A program made the translations under genes and the position numbers. DNA of 10,626 nucleotides, taken from assembly GCA_947165745.1 (NCBI GenBank), contig CAMVBO010000026.1, positions 1-10,626 of the forward strand, written 5' to 3'. Under the pieces are notes generated by a model. It searched no databases. It was not told where the DNA came from and saw only the letters and a list, made by a program, of their open reading frames with translations. Numbering within the stretch: the first letter of the stretch is position 1; every line of letters starts with the position of its first letter. This DNA comes from an uncultured Clostridia bacterium. GTDB lineage: Bacteria > Bacillota_A > Clostridia > Christensenellales > Aristaeellaceae. This document shows positions 1,988-10,407 of the stretch, piece after piece.

Positions 1988-2026
1988 TGGTTCAGACGAA
2001 AAAAGGGCTTTCCGCCCGGGCAACGG

Positions 2027-2056
2027 TGGACAACGGGCGCGGCCGCCTGCTATAAT
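2027..2056 (+). promoter_or_regulatory. Sigma-A type promoter for the glycosidase-like gene
   Basis: TGGACA (2027-2032), an 18-bp spacer and TATAAT (2051-2056). The predicted start near 2063 gives a leader of about 43 nt. It is almost identical to the promoter at 301-330 in sequence and spacing, and it is paired back-to-back with a minus-strand promoter in the same geometry. Confidence 0.75.
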
Positions 2057-2105
2057 GGTGGGGAAACGACCGCGCGGGACGCGGGCGAAGCGGGGAGGAA
2101 TGGCG

Positions 2106-4055
2106 ATGAAGGCGATACAATGGTCGGCCCGGAACCGGGACGAGGCATACAGGCCCCTGGAACAGATGGGGCTCAGCGCGGAATGTGTGGAGGCGTCCGG
2201 AAGCGGCGCGGCGGGCGACCCGTGGATCTGCCGGGTCAGCGTCCGCAACCAGGGCGTCGAACCCTTCGCGGGGGTGATCCGGCTGGCCCTGCCCTTCGAG
2301 GCGGCGGAGCCCCGCTTCTTCCTGCCGGGCTTCATGTACGGCACGAACCGGGGCGAGGCGCCACTGGTGGTGGACAGCCAGACGCCCCGGCTGCGCCGCG
2401 CGCCCACGGATTTTCCGGCCTCGCCCTGGTGGCTGACCCGGGCGGACCGACTGTCACACCCCGCGGCGCTGGCCTTCACCGGCGGCAGGGTGACGGGCCT
2501 GTGCGCGTCGCCCTACTTCGTGCGCGGGGACGGCGGACGGGCGGCCTGGGTCCCCGGCGTTTCCGGCGAATTTGACCAGTACGCCGGCTTTGGCTGCGAC
2601 ATCGACCGGGGCGAGGTTTACTACACCCTGGGCTATGAGAACGCGCCCTGGTTCTTTCTGGATTCCCATAACTATTCGCCCCGGGCGGCGCTGGGCCGAA
2701 ACGCCTTTGAACTCGCGCCGGGGGAGGCGGTCGCCTTTGAAGTGGCGGTGTTCGACTACCCGGCGAACGACGAGCGGGCCATCGACGGGGCCGTCCGCTG
2801 GGTGTACGGCCGCTTCCACGAATCCCCGAGGGAGGGCCTGCCGATCCGAACCGCGGTGGAGGACATCGCCGGCGCGGTGTCCGGCGAGGCCTGGATCGAG
2901 GCAAACAGCGCCTACGCCGGGTTCGTGTTCGACTGGCAGCACGAAAACGAGGTGCGGCTGCTGCCCTCCATCACCTGGACGAACGGGCTGTCCGTGGCGG
3001 TGCCGATGCTCCAGGCGGCCCATCGGCTGGGCCGGGAGGATATGCGGCGGCAGGCGCTCAAATGCGTCGATCACATCGTCAAAACCTCCGTCAACCCGAA
3101 AAACGGCCTGCCCTTCACCGCCGAGGTGGACGGCGTCTGGGGCAACCGGGGCTGGTGGTACGACAAGCAGCCCGTGCCCGGCCACGCGGCCTATCTGGTG
3201 GGCCAGGCGCTGTATTACATCCTGAAGGCGTACGCGCTGGAGAAGGCCCATGGTGCGGACCATCCGGACTGGCTCGCTTACGTCGAAGGCGCGCTTAAGG
3301 TGACGGAGCGCTCCCGCAACGGCGACGGGGAATACCCCTACATCTTCTCCGGGGAATCCGGCGCGGGGCTGTGCTACGGGGCCATGTCCGGCGCCTGGTG
3401 CCTGGCCGCGGCGGCGTATTACGGGTATCTGACCGGCGACAGAAGCCGCCTTGGCGCGCTGCTTCAAAGCGAGGCGCGCTACCACGCCGCTTACGTCGTG
3501 CCGATGGTGTGCTATGGCGGGCCGCTGGACATCGATATGCAGGTGGATTCCGAGGGCGTGCTGGCCTACATCCGCGCCGCGCGGTGGCTGCACGCGATGA
3601 CCGGCGACGCCGGGCTGCTTCGGCGCATGGGCGACGCGCTGGAGTACGAGTTCACCTTCAAGTTCTGCTACAATTCGCCCATCCGGGTGCCGCCGCTGAG
3701 CAAGGTGGGCTGGAGCAGCTGCGGCGGCAGCATCACCTCCGTCACCAATCCCCACATCCACCCCATGTCCTCGTCCATCGTGGACGAGCTGGCGTATTAT
3801 GTGGAAAAGACCGGGGACGCCTATGTGAACCGCCGACTGGAGGACACCGTGCGCTGGAGCCGGCAGGTGTCCAGCGCCTACGACGGCGAGTACGACTACG
3901 GCAAGCGGGGCTGGATGAGCGAGCGCTTCTGCCACTGTGAGGGCCTGCTGACGGAGCGCTATCCCGACGGCGCGCCCGCCAGCACCTGGTTCGCGCTGAT
4001 GCCCTGGGCCTGCGGCTGCATCCTGGAGGCGCTCTGCGGTTCGGCCTGGGCTTGA
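2106..4055 (+). CDS. Uncharacterised six-hairpin glycosidase-like protein
   Basis: A 649-residue protein without signal peptide or membrane segment, so probably cytoplasmic. The first ~245 residues look beta-rich, like an N-terminal sandwich domain. From about residue 275 to the end the pattern is of paired helices with aromatic loops, as in (alpha/alpha)6-barrel glycosidases: SITWTNGLSVAVPML (near 288-302), WGNRGWWYD (345-353), a Gly/Cys-rich GAGLCYGAMSGAWCL stretch (from about 420), a PLDIDMQVDSEG loop, and NPHIHPMSSSIVDELAYY (from 548). Several acidic residues in these loops could be catalytic, but I cannot assign a glycoside hydrolase family or substrate. The frame is open further upstream and has an ATG at 2100, only 1 nt from GGAGG; the ATG at 2106, 7 nt from GGAGG, is the likely start. 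It has its own promoter and terminator and no sugar transporter beside it. Confidence 0.6.
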   Translation: MKAIQWSARNRDEAYRPLEQMGLSAECVEASGSGAAGDPWICRVSVRNQGVEPFAGVIRLALPFEAAEPRFFLPGFMYGTNRGEAPLVVDSQTPRLRRAPTDFPASPWWLTRADRLSHPAALAFTGGRVTGLCASPYFVRGDGGRAAWVPGVSGEFDQYAGFGCDIDRGEVYYTLGYENAPWFFLDSHNYSPRAALGRNAFELAPGEAVAFEVAVFDYPANDERAIDGAVRWVYGRFHESPREGLPIRTAVEDIAGAVSGEAWIEANSAYAGFVFDWQHENEVRLLPSITWTNGLSVAVPMLQAAHRLGREDMRRQALKCVDHIVKTSVNPKNGLPFTAEVDGVWGNRGWWYDKQPVPGHAAYLVGQALYYILKAYALEKAHGADHPDWLAYVEGALKVTERSRNGDGEYPYIFSGESGAGLCYGAMSGAWCLAAAAYYGYLTGDRSRLGALLQSEARYHAAYVVPMVCYGGPLDIDMQVDSEGVLAYIRAARWLHAMTGDAGLLRRMGDALEYEFTFKFCYNSPIRVPPLSKVGWSSCGGSITSVTNPHIHPMSSSIVDELAYYVEKTGDAYVNRRLEDTVRWSRQVSSAYDGEYDYGKRGWMSERFCHCEGLLTERYPDGAPASTWFALMPWACGCILEALCGSAWA

Positions 4056-4256: not shown

Positions 4257-5483
4257 ATGCAGGAAATCAAGTGCCCGAATTGCGGAAAGATATTCCAGGT
4301 GGACGAGTCCGGCTATGCCAACATCCTTCAGCAGGTGCGCGACCGGGAGTTCGACAAGGAGCTGGAGCGCCGGGAGCGGGAGCTGAACGAAAAGCGGGAT
4401 CGGGACCTGACCATCGCCCGCATGGAGCAGGAAAAGACCTATGGCGAGGCAATGGAGAAGAAAAACGGCGAGCTGGCCGAGCGGGACCGGTTGATCGAAC
4501 AGCTCAGGGCCAGGATCGCCGGCAGTGAAACCGAAAAGAAGCTGGCCGTCACGGAGGCGGTGCAGGAGAAGGAGCGCGCGCTCTCCGAAAAAAGCACGGA
4601 GATCACCCAGCTCAAAAACGATCTGGAGCTGCAAAAGCGGGAGGGCGAGCTTCGGGAAAGGAACCTGGCCGAGAAGCACCAGGGCGAGCTTCGGCTGCGG
4701 GACGAGGAGATCGAGCGGCTGAAGGACTTTAAGGCCCGGCAGTCCACCAAGATGGTGGGCGAGAGCCTGGAGCAGCACTGCATGACCCAGTTCAACCAGA
4801 TCCGCATGACCGCCTTCCCCAACGCTTATTTCGAGAAGGACAACGACGCCCGCACGGGCAGCAAGGGCGATTTCATCTTCAGGGAGTCGTCCGGGGACAC
4901 GGAGTTCATCTCCATCATGTTTGAGATGAAAAACGAGATGGACGAGACCGCGACCAAGCACAGGAACGAGGATTTCTTCAAGGAGCTGGACAAGGACCGC
5001 CGGGAGAAGAAATGCGAATACGCCGTGCTGGTGTCGCTGCTGGAGAGCGACAACGAGCTGTACAACAACGGCATCGTGGATGTGTCCTATCGCTATCCGA
5101 AGATGTTTGTCATCCGGCCGCAGTTCTTCATCCCCATCATATCGCTGCTGCGCAACGCCGCGATGAACTCGCTGGAGTACCGGGAAAAGCTGGCGGACCT
5201 CCAGAACCAGCAGCTGGATCTGTACCACTTCGAGGAGAACCTGTCGCTGTTCAAGAACAGCTTTGCCGACAGCTTCCGCAAGGCCAGCGACCGGTTCAAC
5301 GACGCCATCAAGGGCATCGACAACGCCATATCCGCCCTGACGAAGATCCGGGAAAACCTGGTCAAGTCCGAAAACCACCTGAACGCGGCCAACAACAAGC
5401 TGGACGACGTCAGCGTCAAGCGACTGACGAAAAACGCGCCCTCTGTCCGGGCGCTGCTGGAGGACATGAAATCCGAGGAATGA
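4257..5483 (+). CDS. DUF2130 protein: zinc-knuckle, coiled coil and PD-(D/E)XK nuclease-like domain
   Basis: A 408-residue protein starting [14 protein letters not shown]6 and C9 form half of a zinc-ribbon-like knuckle. Residues about 25-160 are highly charged, alternating E/K/R/L, and read as a long coiled coil. From about 160 the DUF2130 domain follows. It has [10 protein letters not shown] (166-175, conserved Glu169 and Glu172), KGD with Asp205 (203-205), and FEMKNE (222-227). D205, E223 and K225 form the D...ExK active site of the PD-(D/E)XK nuclease superfamily, where DUF2130 has been placed. It would cut nucleic acid in a metal-dependent way, but the family has no firm biochemical role that I know of. 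A second charged helical stretch (about 310-390) may aid assembly. GGGAGG at 4244-4249 is 7 nt from the ATG. It is first in a probable three-gene transcript. Confidence 0.8.
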
Positions 5484-5546
5484 GGTCCGTTTTCTGACAG
5501 ATGAAACCCCGCGTTGAGCCGGCGCTGACTGACGGGAGGTATGGAA

Positions 5547-7931
5547 ATGACCGAGATTTACTTTCTGGGATATACGATCATTGCCCTGATCATGGCCTTC
5601 GTGGATTTTCACTTCGCGGTAAAGGCGTTCAGGAAGGGCGACAAGGTGGGCCGGGCGATCGGCTGGTCCGCCGGCTTCGCGGGCATCATCACCCTGGCCT
5701 ACCTGGCCAGCGTGCACACGCACAACCTGGCGCTGGTCTCCCTCTTCTCCAACCTGACCTTCATCAGCATCGACTGCATGCTGGTGTCCCTGGCCTATTA
5801 CGCCTTCCTGGTGACGGGGCTGAACGGCGTCAAGGGCAGCCGGACCGTCAACGACACGATCCGCACCTTCGCCGCGCTGGACATCCTGGTGATGGTGGCC
5901 AACATCTTCACCGGCGTTGCGACGACCTTTCAGCTGGAATCCCCGGTGGGCGTCAGCTATCAGATGAAGACGCCCTACGTCATCCACCTGGTGTTCACCT
6001 ATTTCATCGTGGTGGTGACGCTGATCGTGCTCGTTCACAAGAGCATCCATACGCCCCGAAAGTACCGCAACCAGTATCTGCTGATCATCGCCGCCATCGG
6101 GGTGGCGGTGCTCATCAACGCCGTGTTCCTGTTCCAGGACAAGGGCTCGTTCTTCACCAAGGTGGACTGCTCCATCCTGGGCTACAGCATCGGGCTGTAT
6201 CTGATGTACTGGACCGCTTACGACTACAAGCCCAACGACATGCTGAACTCCCTGTCCAAGACGGTGGTGGAAAACGTCAACCAGGGCATCGTGCTGTTTG
6301 ACTACATGAACGAGCTGATCATGTACAACCGGCGGGCGGAGGCGCTTTTGCAGGGCGTGCCGCTGAAGGAATCCATGCCGTTGGACGATTTCAGCGCGTC
6401 CATCGGCCTTCCTGCCAGCGAGGAGGAGCGGTTCAGCGCCCAGTGCGATATCGAGGGCTGCGTGCCCCTGCGGTGCGACTTTCGCGTGCTGAAGGATAAG
6501 CGCAACAGGCCCATCGGCCGGCTCTTCGCCTTCACGGACATCACCCGGGACATCGACCTGACCACCGGGTTTGAGTACGCCAAGGACTACGCGTACACGG
6601 ACAAGAACGCCGCCCGGTATCCGGCGCCCACCACGGTCATCGTGTTCGACATCATCGGCCTCAGGGAGATCAACCGCGTCCAGGGCCGGGACAGGGGCGA
6701 CAAAATGATCCGCGCGCTGGCCAAGCGCATGAGACAGACCCTGCCCCAGGCCACCACGTTCCTGCGGGGCTTTGAGGCCTACCTGATCGCCATCTGCCCC
6801 GGATTGGACGAGGCGGAGAGCGCCGGGAGGCTGGAGGCGGTCATCGGGGAGAACCGGGAGCGGTGGATCTATGCCATGAGCGCGACGGGGCAGCGGACGC
6901 TGACCGAGGCGCTGCGAACCGCCTATCGCAGCATCCAGATCAAGAAGCTGCTGTGCCCCGGTTCGCTGCGGTCGCAGTCGCTGGCCTCCCTGGTGCGCGC
7001 GTTGAAGGAGGCGGACGCGGACACCGAGGACCACGTGCGCAGGACCCAGAAGATGGGCGCGCTGCTGGGCAGGCGCATCGGCCTGACGGACGCGCAGCTG
7101 GTGCAGCTGGAGCTGCTGTGTCTGCTGCATGACATCGGCAAGATCGGCATCCCCCTGGAGATTTTGAACAAACCGGGCAAGCTGGCGGACCAGGAGTGGG
7201 AGGTGCTGCGCACCCATCCGGAGAAGGGTTATCAAATCGCCATGTCCGCCGACGAGCTGAGCACCATCGCGGACATGATCCTGTACCACCACGAGCGCTG
7301 GGACGGCCGGGGTTATCCCAAGGGCTTGAAGGGGGAGGAGATCCCGGTGCTGTCGCGGATCATCTCCATCGTGGACGCCTACGACGCCATGGTCAACGAC
7401 CGCAGCTACAGAAAGGCCCTGAAGCCGGAGAAGGCCCAGGAGGAGATCCGTGTGAACGCCGGCACGCAGTTTGACCCGGTGCTGGCCGGGGAGTTTTTGA
7501 ACCTGCTGGCGGAGCACCCGGAGGTCGCCCGGGGCGAAAAGGTGGGCCCGGAAGCCGAAGAGAGCGTCGTGAAGGCGCTGACGGCGGACGCAAGCGCCAC
7601 GGGCGTGACGGTGCCCATCGCCTACAGTCGCTACATGTTGGACATGAACGAGACCATCATCGAGGTGGACGAACGGTTTGAGGAGATCACCGGCTATGAC
7701 CGGGCCAACGTGATCGGCAAGATGACCCAGTTCGACCTGATCCCGGCGGAGGACCGGGCGCACTATGTGCTGCAGGTGGGCAAGCAGTTCTCCCAGGGCG
7801 ACATGGCCTACCTGCGCCACGAGATCCGCCGCAAGGACGGCGTGAGGATCCAGGTGGCCTGCTACGGCAGGCGGTACTACGATTCGGCGGTCAAGGCCTA
7901 TCGGAACGAGATCATCATCTTCCAGCTCTGA
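5547..7931 (+). CDS. Membrane receptor: 7TM - PAS - degenerate GGDEF - HD-GYP - PAS (c-di-GMP phosphodiesterase)
   Basis: A 794-residue protein, numbered from the ATG at 5547, which is 7 nt after GGGAGG; the ATG at 5541 is only 1 nt from it. About seven membrane segments fill residues 1-225, as in 7TM sensor kinases. A PAS-like segment follows (about 240-340). A GGDEF-type fold is then recognisable by FDIIGLREIN (D368), but the signature reads LRGFEA (406-411) and the metal Asp position after FDI is Ile, so cyclase activity should be lost. The HD-GYP domain is intact: HDIGKIGIP (H528, D529), HPEKG (H557), HHERWDGRGYP (H581, H582, GYP 589-591) and VDAYDAM. It should hydrolyse cyclic di-GMP or a related dinucleotide at the inner membrane face. 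A second PAS domain (about 690-794) ends the protein, an uncommon position. It lies 63 nt after DUF2130 and 43 nt before the deaminase-like gene. Confidence 0.85.
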   Translation: MTEIYFLGYTIIALIMAFVDFHFAVKAFRKGDKVGRAIGWSAGFAGIITLAYLASVHTHNLALVSLFSNLTFISIDCMLVSLAYYAFLVTGLNGVKGSRTVNDTIRTFAALDILVMVANIFTGVATTFQLESPVGVSYQMKTPYVIHLVFTYFIVVVTLIVLVHKSIHTPRKYRNQYLLIIAAIGVAVLINAVFLFQDKGSFFTKVDCSILGYSIGLYLMYWTAYDYKPNDMLNSLSKTVVENVNQGIVLFDYMNELIMYNRRAEALLQGVPLKESMPLDDFSASIGLPASEEERFSAQCDIEGCVPLRCDFRVLKDKRNRPIGRLFAFTDITRDIDLTTGFEYAKDYAYTDKNAARYPAPTTVIVFDIIGLREINRVQGRDRGDKMIRALAKRMRQTLPQATTFLRGFEAYLIAICPGLDEAESAGRLEAVIGENRERWIYAMSATGQRTLTEALRTAYRSIQIKKLLCPGSLRSQSLASLVRALKEADADTEDHVRRTQKMGALLGRRIGLTDAQLVQLELLCLLHDIGKIGIPLEILNKPGKLADQEWEVLRTHPEKGYQIAMSADELSTIADMILYHHERWDGRGYPKGLKGEEIPVLSRIISIVDAYDAMVNDRSYRKALKPEKAQEEIRVNAGTQFDPVLAGEFLNLLAEHPEVARGEKVGPEAEESVVKALTADASATGVTVPIAYSRYMLDMNETIIEVDERFEEITGYDRANVIGKMTQFDLIPAEDRAHYVLQVGKQFSQGDMAYLRHEIRRKDGVRIQVACYGRRYYDSAVKAYRNEIIIFQL

Positions 7932-7974
7932 CGGAAGGATTGAATCCCCAAGGCGGCACGCAAGGAGGCGCGAA

Positions 7975-10407
7975 ATGCTCTTTTTTCAGCAGTTTTACCT
8001 GGACCGCGAGAAGGACATCGTCGTGGATCTCTACCTGGAGGGGGAGCGCCTCTTCCACGTCATCAGGACGCCCAACCACCACAGCGGCAACCTGGTGACG
8101 AACCTGGCGCGGCTGTGCGACCTGGAGACCTCGCTGGATGAAAACGGGTTGAAGGTGATTCGCGGCGAGGTGCCCTGCTATTTCGACGGGGACAACCGGC
8201 GGGTGTACATCCTGCGCCTGGGGGACACCAAGGTGGCCAACATCTTCCCGGACGGGCGGGTGGAGCTGAAGGCCTCCGTCCCGGCCATTTCCAAGACGCT
8301 GATGAGCCAGACCAAGGACTATCGCCTGGGCATCGAAAAGACCATCGTCAAGACCTATATCCGCAGCGATTGCAAGTTCCGCACGGACCTGCACACCCAC
8401 ATGAACGGCAACCTGCCCCCGGACGCGCTGATCGCCCTGGGCATCACCCACCAGATCCGCTATCCGTATTATTACGTGAAGAAGCTGGAGCTGCAATGCA
8501 CGCTGGAGCAGATCGCCCGGCTGGAGGCGGCGCGGGTGGTGGCGGAAAAGGCGCTGGGGGACATCCCCCTGACGGGCCGCCACCGGGAGCGCCGCATCGA
8601 CGACTTCACCTTCATCAACTTCGCCGACCTGATCCTGGGCAACCCGGACCATGCCCTTGAAAACATCGAAAAGATCCGCAATTCTCTGACCATCCCCAAG
8701 GACGGCCAGGCGGTGTTCGCCAATCTGGAGAAGGTGTACCTGTACCGCTATGTGTTTACCAAGGGCGTGCGGGTGGCGGATCCCTTCGCGGGCGTGAACA
8801 TCGAGCGCATCCCGGACCGGGAGGTGCTCGCCTACGCCCAGCGCATGCAGCGGGACCGGGAGGACGACCGCTATCGGGGCAACACCCTGTACCAGGACCT
8901 GCTCCTGTGGATCGCCCGGGAGTACCAGAGGCACGGCATTGAGTACGCGGAGATTTCCGACACGTCCCTTCTGAACCGGGCGGAATATCCCGCCAAGCTG
9001 CGCCAGATCCACGAGGTGATGCCCGCCGTCACCCGGGAGACGGGCGTGGTGCTGCGGTTCCTTGCGGGCATTCGCCGCGTGCCGCTGACCATCGTGAAGG
9101 ACGCGATCACCCCCAACGACTACCTGGCCGAAAATTTGCGCTGTCTGCGGGCCATCGCCGGGGACCCCTACGTGGCCGGCAGCGACATCATCGGCGAGGA
9201 GATCAACGACGTGATGGAGCTGAAGGGCGTCATCCGCGAGCTGGTGCGCCTGGCGGGAGAGCACCCCGGCTTTGTGATCCGCATCCACGCCGGGGAAAAC
9301 GACAGCCTGCGGGACAACGTGGCAAACAGCATCCGCTGCGTGGAGGAGGCCCTGGCCCCTGGCCAGCGGATGCCGCCGCTGCGGCTGGGCCACGGGCTGT
9401 ATACCTGCGACCTGCGCAGCGAAAAGGGCAAAAAGCTGCTCAACGACATGCGCCGCCTGGGCGTGACGCTGGAATTTCAGATCACCTCCAACGTGCGGCT
9501 CAACAACCTGTCCAGGCTGGAGCGGCACCCGTTGCGGCGCTATCTGAAGGCGGGCGTGCGCTGCGTGCAGGGCACCGACGGCGGCGCGCTGTACGGCACG
9601 AATACCATCGACGAGGAGCTAAGCCTGGAGAAGCTGCTGGGGCTGAGCCAGGCGGAGCTGCGCCGGATGCGCGAGGCGGAGGACGACATCCTGAAGGAGA
9701 GCCGCCGGGTGTACGCCGCGCGGCTGGACGCCTTCCGCGAGGCCTGCGCCGGGGACGTGGAGCAGTTCTACGGGGCGCGGCTGGAGGCGGCGGACGGCGC
9801 CCCGGAGGACCTGTGGCACGCGGGCGGCAGGGTGGCCGCGGAGGAGGCCCTGCGGGAGCAGATCGCCCCGCTGCCCCAGGGACGCCTGCCCATCGTGGTG
9901 GCAGGGGGCAGCTTCAACAGCAGCCGGCGGCGCACCCCCCTGCGCCAGGAAGACCGGGATTTCATTGACGCGCTGCTGGAGGGCGCCGACCCGGAGAAGG
10001 TCTGCTTCGTGGTGGGCCACGCGCTGACAGCCCAGGAGGGGTATCTGGTCCGGCGGGCGGCCGGGCGGTTCGGCGTGTTCGCCATCGTGCCGAACCGGCT
10101 CACCCCCGCCCAGGCGTCCAGGCTGCGGGAGGCGAACGCGGGCATACTGGTGTCCATCGAGAGCACCGCCGGCGGGCTGTACAAGAGCTTCGCCTATGAG
10201 ATCTTCAAGCGGCAGCCCTCGGTGCTGATCGCCTTCGACGGCAATTCCGCGGCGCTGAACCTGATTCAGGAGGCCCGCAACGCCCGGCGCAAGTGCCGCA
10301 TCTATATCAACCCCCGCTCCCGGGGCCTCGCCGCCAAGGGAAAGATGTTGGAGGGCTATGTCCAGCCCATCGGCGACGCGAAGGCGCTGCTCGGGGAGAT
10401 CCAATAG
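7975..10407 (+). CDS. Adenosine-deaminase-like metal hydrolase fused to a Rossmann/SLOG-like C-terminal domain
   Basis: An 810-residue, probably cytoplasmic protein. Residues 1-130 are an unrecognised beta-rich N-terminal region. An adenosine/AMP-deaminase-type core follows: DLHTHMNGN with HxH (H140, H142), GIEYAEIS, HAGE (H438, E441), RLGHG (H473) and GTDGG (D535). These match the zinc ligands, general acid Glu and catalytic His of the family. The core is enlarged: HxH to D535 spans about 395 residues against about 280 in ordinary adenosine deaminases. The DD pair of the family reads DG here, which may alter base recognition. From about 638, IVVAGGSF, VVGH (679-682), SIESTAGG and SFAYEIF...VLIAFDGNSAALN suggest a Rossmann-type, possibly SLOG, nucleotide-binding domain; this part is less certain. 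The large size recalls RADAR RdrB, but no RdrA-like ATPase is present. AAGGAGG (7962-7968) is 6 nt from the ATG. Confidence 0.65.
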   Translation: MLFFQQFYLDREKDIVVDLYLEGERLFHVIRTPNHHSGNLVTNLARLCDLETSLDENGLKVIRGEVPCYFDGDNRRVYILRLGDTKVANIFPDGRVELKASVPAISKTLMSQTKDYRLGIEKTIVKTYIRSDCKFRTDLHTHMNGNLPPDALIALGITHQIRYPYYYVKKLELQCTLEQIARLEAARVVAEKALGDIPLTGRHRERRIDDFTFINFADLILGNPDHALENIEKIRNSLTIPKDGQAVFANLEKVYLYRYVFTKGVRVADPFAGVNIERIPDREVLAYAQRMQRDREDDRYRGNTLYQDLLLWIAREYQRHGIEYAEISDTSLLNRAEYPAKLRQIHEVMPAVTRETGVVLRFLAGIRRVPLTIVKDAITPNDYLAENLRCLRAIAGDPYVAGSDIIGEEINDVMELKGVIRELVRLAGEHPGFVIRIHAGENDSLRDNVANSIRCVEEALAPGQRMPPLRLGHGLYTCDLRSEKGKKLLNDMRRLGVTLEFQITSNVRLNNLSRLERHPLRRYLKAGVRCVQGTDGGALYGTNTIDEELSLEKLLGLSQAELRRMREAEDDILKESRRVYAARLDAFREACAGDVEQFYGARLEAADGAPEDLWHAGGRVAAEEALREQIAPLPQGRLPIVVAGGSFNSSRRRTPLRQEDRDFIDALLEGADPEKVCFVVGHALTAQEGYLVRRAAGRFGVFAIVPNRLTPAQASRLREANAGILVSIESTAGGLYKSFAYEIFKRQPSVLIAFDGNSAALNLIQEARNARRKCRIYINPRSRGLAAKGKMLEGYVQPIGDAKALLGEIQ

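Follow-up and report, generated by a model that had tools for sequence, protein, structure and literature searches.

Related systems and the ADA-SLOG gene

Cad1 (CAAD), a ligand-gated ATP deaminase that belongs with type III CRISPR, joins a sensor domain to an adenosine deaminase (ADA) domain. In published reports, TaqCad1 turns ATP into ITP with cA4 or cA6 and its deamination of adenosine is undetectable by ultraviolet (UV) measurement (PMC12669630), while Cad1 has no significant activity on adenosine, AMP, dATP or CTP (PMC11645235). ThsA of Thoeris (SIR2-SLOG) is an enzyme regulated by a SLOG domain that binds a cyclic ADP-ribose isomer, and the RADAR defence system has an ADA-type deaminase, RdrB (PMC12948488). 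The MHR1/MHR2 region of TRPM2 binds ADP-ribose in cryo-electron microscopy structures, in a role called controversial (PMC7438885); SLOG functions have been reviewed (PMC9503650) and are touched on elsewhere (PMC7159879). We describe here a gene, ADA-SLOG, in which an ADA core is fused to a SLOG-type domain. It lies in a stretch of 10,626 nucleotides from an uncultured Clostridia bacterium (contig CAMVBO010000026.1, assembly GCA_947165745.1), hereafter the window, as a single long open reading frame (ORF) at 7975..10407 on the + strand, with an ATG start and a product of 810 amino acids (aa).

Like Cad1, ADA-SLOG combines a sensor-type domain with an ADA domain and is substituted at the same two active-site positions. 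The Cad1 sensor is an N-terminal CARF domain, whereas the putative sensor of ADA-SLOG is a C-terminal SLOG domain, and ADA-SLOG has in addition an extra N-terminal domain and a larger barrel. No CARF domain was assigned to it because its C-terminal domain best matches SLOG structures. It resembles ThsA in pairing an enzyme domain with a SLOG domain, but the ThsA effector is an NADase and its signal is made by a TIR partner gene. No description of an ADA-SLOG fusion was found among literature titles and abstract openings; because a 2015 survey of SLOG domains and nucleotide conflict systems (doi 10.1093/nar/gkv1267) lies outside that coverage, the fusion cannot be called unpublished.

The three-part architecture of ADA-SLOG is near certain. 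By computation, the protein has this architecture, a complete metal site, loss of two active-site aspartates, a SLOG fold and no generally conserved neighbour. We tentatively read it, with a confidence a little short of even, as a self-contained enzyme that deaminates a phosphorylated purine nucleotide under the control of a ligand, with putative substrate, ligand, allosteric coupling and role.

Membership of the ADA superfamily was indicated both by fold and by the curated Pfam threshold: A_deaminase (PF00962) scored 58.4 bits against a cut-off of 27, with its best stretch at residues 313-566. NCBIfam adenosine deaminase models remained far under their cut-offs (best 44 bits versus 459; TIGR01430 42.9 versus 216.55). 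No Pfam family was found at either end of the protein, in keeping with the preliminary description of an unrecognised N-terminal domain. A first structure model had a poor core (mean pLDDT 61.8), and hence only its C-terminus was used; that part gave the SLOG fold match. The second, an AlphaFold2 (AF2) model, had a pLDDT of 89.4 and a pTM of 0.89, and ADA and amidohydrolase rows filled its structure search. A BFVD structure search gave nothing useful. The features are as follows; counts out of 91 refer to the alignment described in the next section.

7962..7968, + strand: AAGGAGG, likely ribosome-binding site, 6 nt 5' of the ATG (from the sequence, its role judged by spacing)
7975..10407, + strand: whole ADA-SLOG coding sequence (ORF, PF00962 match, homologues, AF2 model)
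7975..8274, + strand: N-terminal domain, residues 1-100 (secondary structure of the model)
8350..9720, + strand: ADA barrel, residues 126-582
8392..8400, + strand: metal motif HxH, H140 and H142 (91/91)
8404..8406, + strand: N144, at the place of mouse ADA Asp19 (alignment)
8518..8598, + strand: first core insert relative to the divergent clade, about residues 182-208 (alignment, by eye)
8764..8880, + strand: second core insert, about residues 264-302 (alignment, by eye)
9079..9105, + strand: third, short core insert, about residues 369-377 (alignment and model)
9286..9297, + strand: HAGE, with metal ligand H438 and catalytic glutamate E441 (91/91; roles by analogy with ADA)
9391..9393, + strand: H473, catalytic histidine (91/91; role by analogy with ADA)
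9577..9582, + strand: metal ligand D535, then G536 at the place of mouse ADA Asp296 (D and G each 91/91)
9874..10404, + strand: SLOG-type C-terminal domain, residues 634-810

Scans for promoters and terminators around the gene found none. The N-terminal residues 1-100 are modelled chiefly as beta strands with one helix, and the missing fold assignment is no evidence of a new fold. Mean identity over residues 1-125 is 0.75 inside the window clade and 0.17 against the divergent clade; this part, which has no Pfam family, is the best-conserved stretch of the window clade.

Active site and size of the deaminase core

A 783-aa relative in genome G143 (L087 5226-7577) was the entry point to a second, divergent clade, whose members have 23-27% identity to the window protein and share its layout of an N-terminal piece, an ADA core and a C-terminal Rossmann-like part. 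In a search for this clade, 457/7996 candidates passed E 0.001; the best 120 were listed and 50 were aligned. Together with 41 sequences of the window clade, these gave the alignment of 91 sequences used for the active site. The motif residues picked out in the preliminary description (H140, H142, H438, E441, H473 and D535) proved real, being unchanged in 91/91.

The place of mouse ADA Asp19 is taken by N (33/41) or S (8/41) in the window clade and by A (49/50) or S (1/50) in the divergent clade, with D or E in 0/91. At the place of Asp296 (mouse numbering), G stands in 91/91. Judged from the alignment, both nucleoside-contacting aspartates of canonical ADA are thus replaced throughout. Among six plain ADA-type proteins that were aligned (seven were tried), the Asp19 place holds D or E in 5/6 and the Asp296 place D or N in 6/6, N in three of them. 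TaqCad1 and its close homologues also have both aspartate positions substituted (by G and N), and the TaqCad1 variants N549D and N549D/G264D do not act on ATP (PMC12669630). By analogy, this parallel is suggestive, not proof.

The core is indeed enlarged, as had been claimed with an estimate of about 115 extra residues. From H140 to D535 the median span is 396 aa in the window clade versus 325 in the divergent clade, and the equivalent span is 265-275 aa in 4/5 plain ADAs, those that were measurable, or about 121-131 residues shorter than in the window clade. The third insert overlaps residues 372-379, where confidence in the model is lowest. Compared with adenosine deaminase (Add, PF00962), ADA-SLOG keeps the barrel and the full metal and catalytic set but differs in this added length between the first histidine and the metal aspartate, in the replacement of the D19 and D296 equivalents and in its two extra domains.

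The C-terminal SLOG domain

By structure comparison the C-terminal domain best matches SLOG structures and has a SLOG Rossmann fold, so the SLOG-like C-terminus of the preliminary description held, and a fold unrelated to SLOG, which would have spoken against it, was not seen. By sequence, the window-clade C-terminus had no credible match to solved structures or Pfam, LSDAT included. Support from sequence came from the divergent clade. LSDAT_prok or LSDAT_euk (SLOG in TRPM) matched under cut-off in 8/9 divergent proteins scanned (E 0.0023-0.13), LSDAT_prok in seven, LSDAT_euk in three and neither in P0128. With a profile of 14 divergent sequences, 23/25 solved-structure rows at E 10 were TRPM2, TRPM8 and TRPM2-like channels (E 0.06-0.46), and the TRPM alignment displayed passes through lvtGGTNfGvekelhe. 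Profile comparison matches the C-termini of the two clades to each other (94.6%, E 7e-8). We favour a SLOG/TRPM type for the consistency of the matches and for the fold; single scores are not significant.

TGGTN is present in 49/50 divergent members and in 0/41 of the window clade. The site is therefore altered in the window branch. The likeness to the N-terminal SLOG of LSDAT/TRPM proteins (PF18171, PF18139) thus lies in the fold and in the TGGTN of the divergent clade, whereas the window clade has no TGGTN, ADA-SLOG has no membrane channel part and profile scores are under cut-off. PF18171 gave one weak match in 148 genomes of the class. A search for stand-alone copies of this SLOG type gave hits for 28/2876 candidates (roughly 108-343 aa), many of them on short contigs and probably fragments.

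A LOG-like hydrolase (PF03641) was considered for the C-terminus and rejected. The PGGxGTxxE motif of LOG occurs in 0/91 sequences, compared with 7/7 LOG controls, which were picked by their PGGxGT, and profile comparison with these seven proteins was not significant (E 0.4-0.5). These results bear on the possibility that ADA-SLOG is a bifunctional salvage or clean-up enzyme, its barrel deaminating an adenine nucleotide, perhaps an N6-modified one, and its SLOG domain serving as a glycosidase, akin to LOG or to deoxyribosyltransferases, whose substrate is the product or that same nucleotide. We regard this as improbable, given the absent motif, the non-significant profile comparison and, among the first 25 families listed, the lack of a purine family recurring in adjacent genes.

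Homologues and distribution

Among 8000 candidates of similar length that were scored, 5446 were below E 0.001, and the best 120 of these cover 89-100% of the query at 74-100% identity. Between the top match, P0001, and the window protein, 2/810 residues differ. Those of the 120 that carry a source protein name come from Clostridia and Oscillospiraceae metagenome-assembled genomes (MAGs) and all bear the name 'adenosine deaminase'. In species-representative genomes, at least 435 of at least 500 pattern-matching stretches were confirmed; the best 80, kept as loci, have 59-89% identity and are by title chiefly from ruminant-gut Clostridia MAGs.

Within single genera presence is patchy, at 11/28 genomes in one and 27/61 in another, where one genome has a second, partial match. 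At the family level 36/150 genomes were positive, some by fragments alone. At the order level 10/200 matched (five of the ADA-SLOG family, one divergent relative and four of plain-ADA size), and at the phylum level 6/398 (two of the ADA-SLOG family and four of plain-ADA size). Many of the scanned genomes are MAGs, and absence is therefore overstated. Full-length copies in one genus (the 61-genome set) score from 1662 bits down to 1169 with a single profile, a range that suggests either transfer or old divergence. The gene looks chromosomal, usually single-copy and patchy.

Seventeen genomes picked as carriers each hold one copy (17/17). Of these, many of which are incomplete MAGs, 14/17 have no other PF00962 protein and 3/17 have one other. 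This, the name given to the few homologues that have a source name, and the intact metal and catalytic residues would all fit an ordinary purine-salvage adenosine deaminase whose extra domain merely aids folding or assembly. We consider such an enzyme quite improbable, however, since both nucleoside-contact aspartates are replaced in 91/91, NCBIfam scores are so far under cut-off, presence is patchy, and 2/17 carrier genomes hold a plain ADA of 327-356 aa besides. In one genome that also carries ADA-SLOG, locus L103 encodes an ADA-like protein whose HxH region is altered and whose N-terminus, judged by eye, has an acetyltransferase-like stretch.

Named sources of the divergent clade include Bacilli, Clostridia, Christensenellaceae, Ignavibacteriales and Azospirillum MAGs. 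Some of its members are 950-1016 aa long and carry extra C-terminal sequence, a stretch of about 190 aa in P0123, P0128, P0145 and similar proteins of about 950-1003 aa. All that matched there was a sub-threshold PGDYG in P0123 and P0128, and in P0189 (Ignavibacteriales MAG) the extra stretch matches PF15891 (nucleoside deoxyribosyltransferase), under cut-off. The gene downstream at L090 was considered as a counterpart of the P0123 extension and rejected, as the two have no similarity.

Genomic neighbourhood and mobile elements

Gene order was compared over 81 loci (the 80 and the window) with our own simple gene calling. Adjacent genes were scanned at 75 upstream and 72 of 73 downstream positions, with the 3,259-aa protein of L035 omitted, and 103 of 105 genes five places away served as the control, two long ones being omitted. 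No generally conserved neighbour was found over the 81 loci. The largest neighbour cluster looks like an ATP-binding cassette (ABC) transporter ATPase and occurs at 24 loci in scattered positions; by position, the most-shared clusters reach 2/75 loci at -1, 5/73 at +1 and 6/67 at +2. The highest sharing at +1 and +2 stems from six loci (L033, L038, L040, L042, L045 and L049), which have a downstream block in common at +2 and +3 that in five of the six includes +1 as well. This block looks like common ancestry of the loci. The closest relatives occupy different genomic places: L005 has the upstream signalling gene of the window, and L001 and L002 are alike to each other.

Any one Pfam family occurs in at most 3/75 upstream and 5/72 downstream genes (the latter AI-2E transporter), versus at most 4/103 control genes. 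Nor did a purine gene family, among the first 25 families listed, recur beside ADA-SLOG over the 81 loci; the purine gene clusters expected of a plain salvage enzyme were thus not seen. With PADLOC at E 1e-10, any one model matched at most 3/75 upstream and 1/72 downstream genes, versus at most 2/103 control genes. RdrA models were absent from the 147 adjacent genes at that threshold, and the window protein itself matched no PADLOC model at E 1, RdrB included. ADA-SLOG is thus like RdrB in being an ADA-type protein but unlike RADAR in both these respects. No type III CRISPR link of the kind that Cad1 has was seen in the adjacent genes and control set scanned; one DEDDh 'CAS-associated' model match occurred in the 72 downstream adjacent genes and none in the 75 upstream. 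A defence-island or operon reading was rejected, there being no general partner over 81 loci and no family in more than five adjacent genes.

Two scans of viral contigs (18 and 32 pattern matches) gave no confirmed relative. Phage records held no relative of the window protein, P0160 giving two ADA-region matches at 24% identity, and plasmid records added add genes only, with no fusion; the two record sets contained only ADA-like stretches of about 27% identity or less. A viral origin was rejected, as no fusion copy was confirmed in any of these sources.

The preliminary description had hinted at a conflict system. A single-gene abortive defence effector, in which a nucleotide that infection raises or changes is sensed by the SLOG domain, whereupon the deaminase uses up ATP or dATP, would overlap in mechanism with the regulated deaminase that we propose. 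It would suit the architecture, which is like that of Cad1 (sensor and ADA) and ThsA (SLOG and NADase), the patchiness within genera, the very unequal divergence of copies in one genus, and a chromosomal place that changes, as for single-gene accessory systems. We nevertheless judge it unlikely: no PADLOC model covers the protein, matches to defence models are no more frequent in adjacent genes than in those five places off, conservation (59-89% in the best 80 loci) is unusual for an arms-race gene, and viral, phage and plasmid copies were not found. An accessory role is favoured by the patchiness and the changing places, and a metabolic or stress role by the conservation and the absence of defence neighbours.

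GGDEF domains occur in 3/75 upstream and 3/72 downstream adjacent genes (6/147) versus at most 2/103 control genes, the control figure being an upper bound as GGDEF was not among the 25 control families listed. EAL occurs in 3/72 adjacent genes. A leaning to cyclic di-GMP signalling neighbours is possible, the cases being too few to tell. Directly downstream at L001 (12449-12886) lies a small protein matching HD_4, with a near-identical gene at L002 (12449-12886); HD_4 occurs in 2/72 downstream neighbours.

Proposed function

In the reading we prefer, the barrel would most likely strip the 6-amino group from a phosphorylated purine nucleotide rather than from free adenosine, candidate substrates being ATP, dATP, AMP and modified forms of adenine nucleotides. 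At the C-terminus, the SLOG domain, whose nucleotide-binding fold occurs in animal TRPM channels too and binds ADP-ribose in TRPM2, would most likely bind a nucleotide-type ligand and switch or tune the deaminase. This would be the logic of Cad1 as a one-gene unit with no dedicated signal-making neighbour. The suggestion in the preliminary description that one polypeptide senses one nucleotide and deaminates another fits the aspartate loss and the Cad1 parallel; its ligand and substrate stay putative.

Several points weigh against this reading. N at the Asp296 place in 3/6 plain ADA-type proteins indicates that change there is tolerated. By mass spectrometry wild-type TaqCad1 weakly converts adenosine, and restoring its aspartates raises adenosine deamination somewhat, with no rescue (PMC12669630); the two positions alone therefore do not set specificity. 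Every LSDAT/TRPM sequence match is weak taken singly, and the two best rows of the divergent-profile search (E 0.03-0.05) were the unrelated Far upstream element-binding protein 1. Since TGGTN is absent from the window clade, the SLOG domain there may have changed ligand or have a structural role only; it is also the least conserved part of that clade (0.60 versus 0.71 and 0.75). Finally, effectors under sensor control are often accompanied by a neighbouring gene that makes the signal, and none was seen here.

A more specific version, which we hold to be doubtful, is a nucleotide alarm: a TRPM-type SLOG would sense ADP-ribose-like or other signals and gate deamination of adenine nucleotides (ATP or dATP) to inosine forms, leading to stress-related or antiviral growth arrest with no CRISPR, cyclase or TIR partner, and the window clade would be a second branch, its sensor retuned to another ligand.

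Were the regulated deaminase confirmed, a SLOG-controlled deaminase would be present in common, mostly uncultured gut and rumen bacteria, and nucleotide sensing of the TRPM/Thoeris type would be linked with ATP-deaminase effectors such as Cad1, with one protein in which to test both. Should the enzyme turn out to be metabolic, the wrong substrate would still have been attached to a large family.

Other genes in the window

Upstream of ADA-SLOG and on the same strand, with 43 nt between the two, lies a gene for a signalling protein of 796 aa (5541-7931, +). Its product has a seven-transmembrane region, a PAS domain, a weak GGDEF match (21.4 bits, cut-off 23.8), an HD-GYP-type HD domain and a further PAS domain. 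Among the 80 loci, its sole cluster partner is the L005 gene in the corresponding position. For the protein of about 683 aa at 2004-4055 (+), Pfam and NCBIfam at E 1 gave no match, and the gene at 4257-5483 (+) encodes a DUF2130 protein (E 2e-86).
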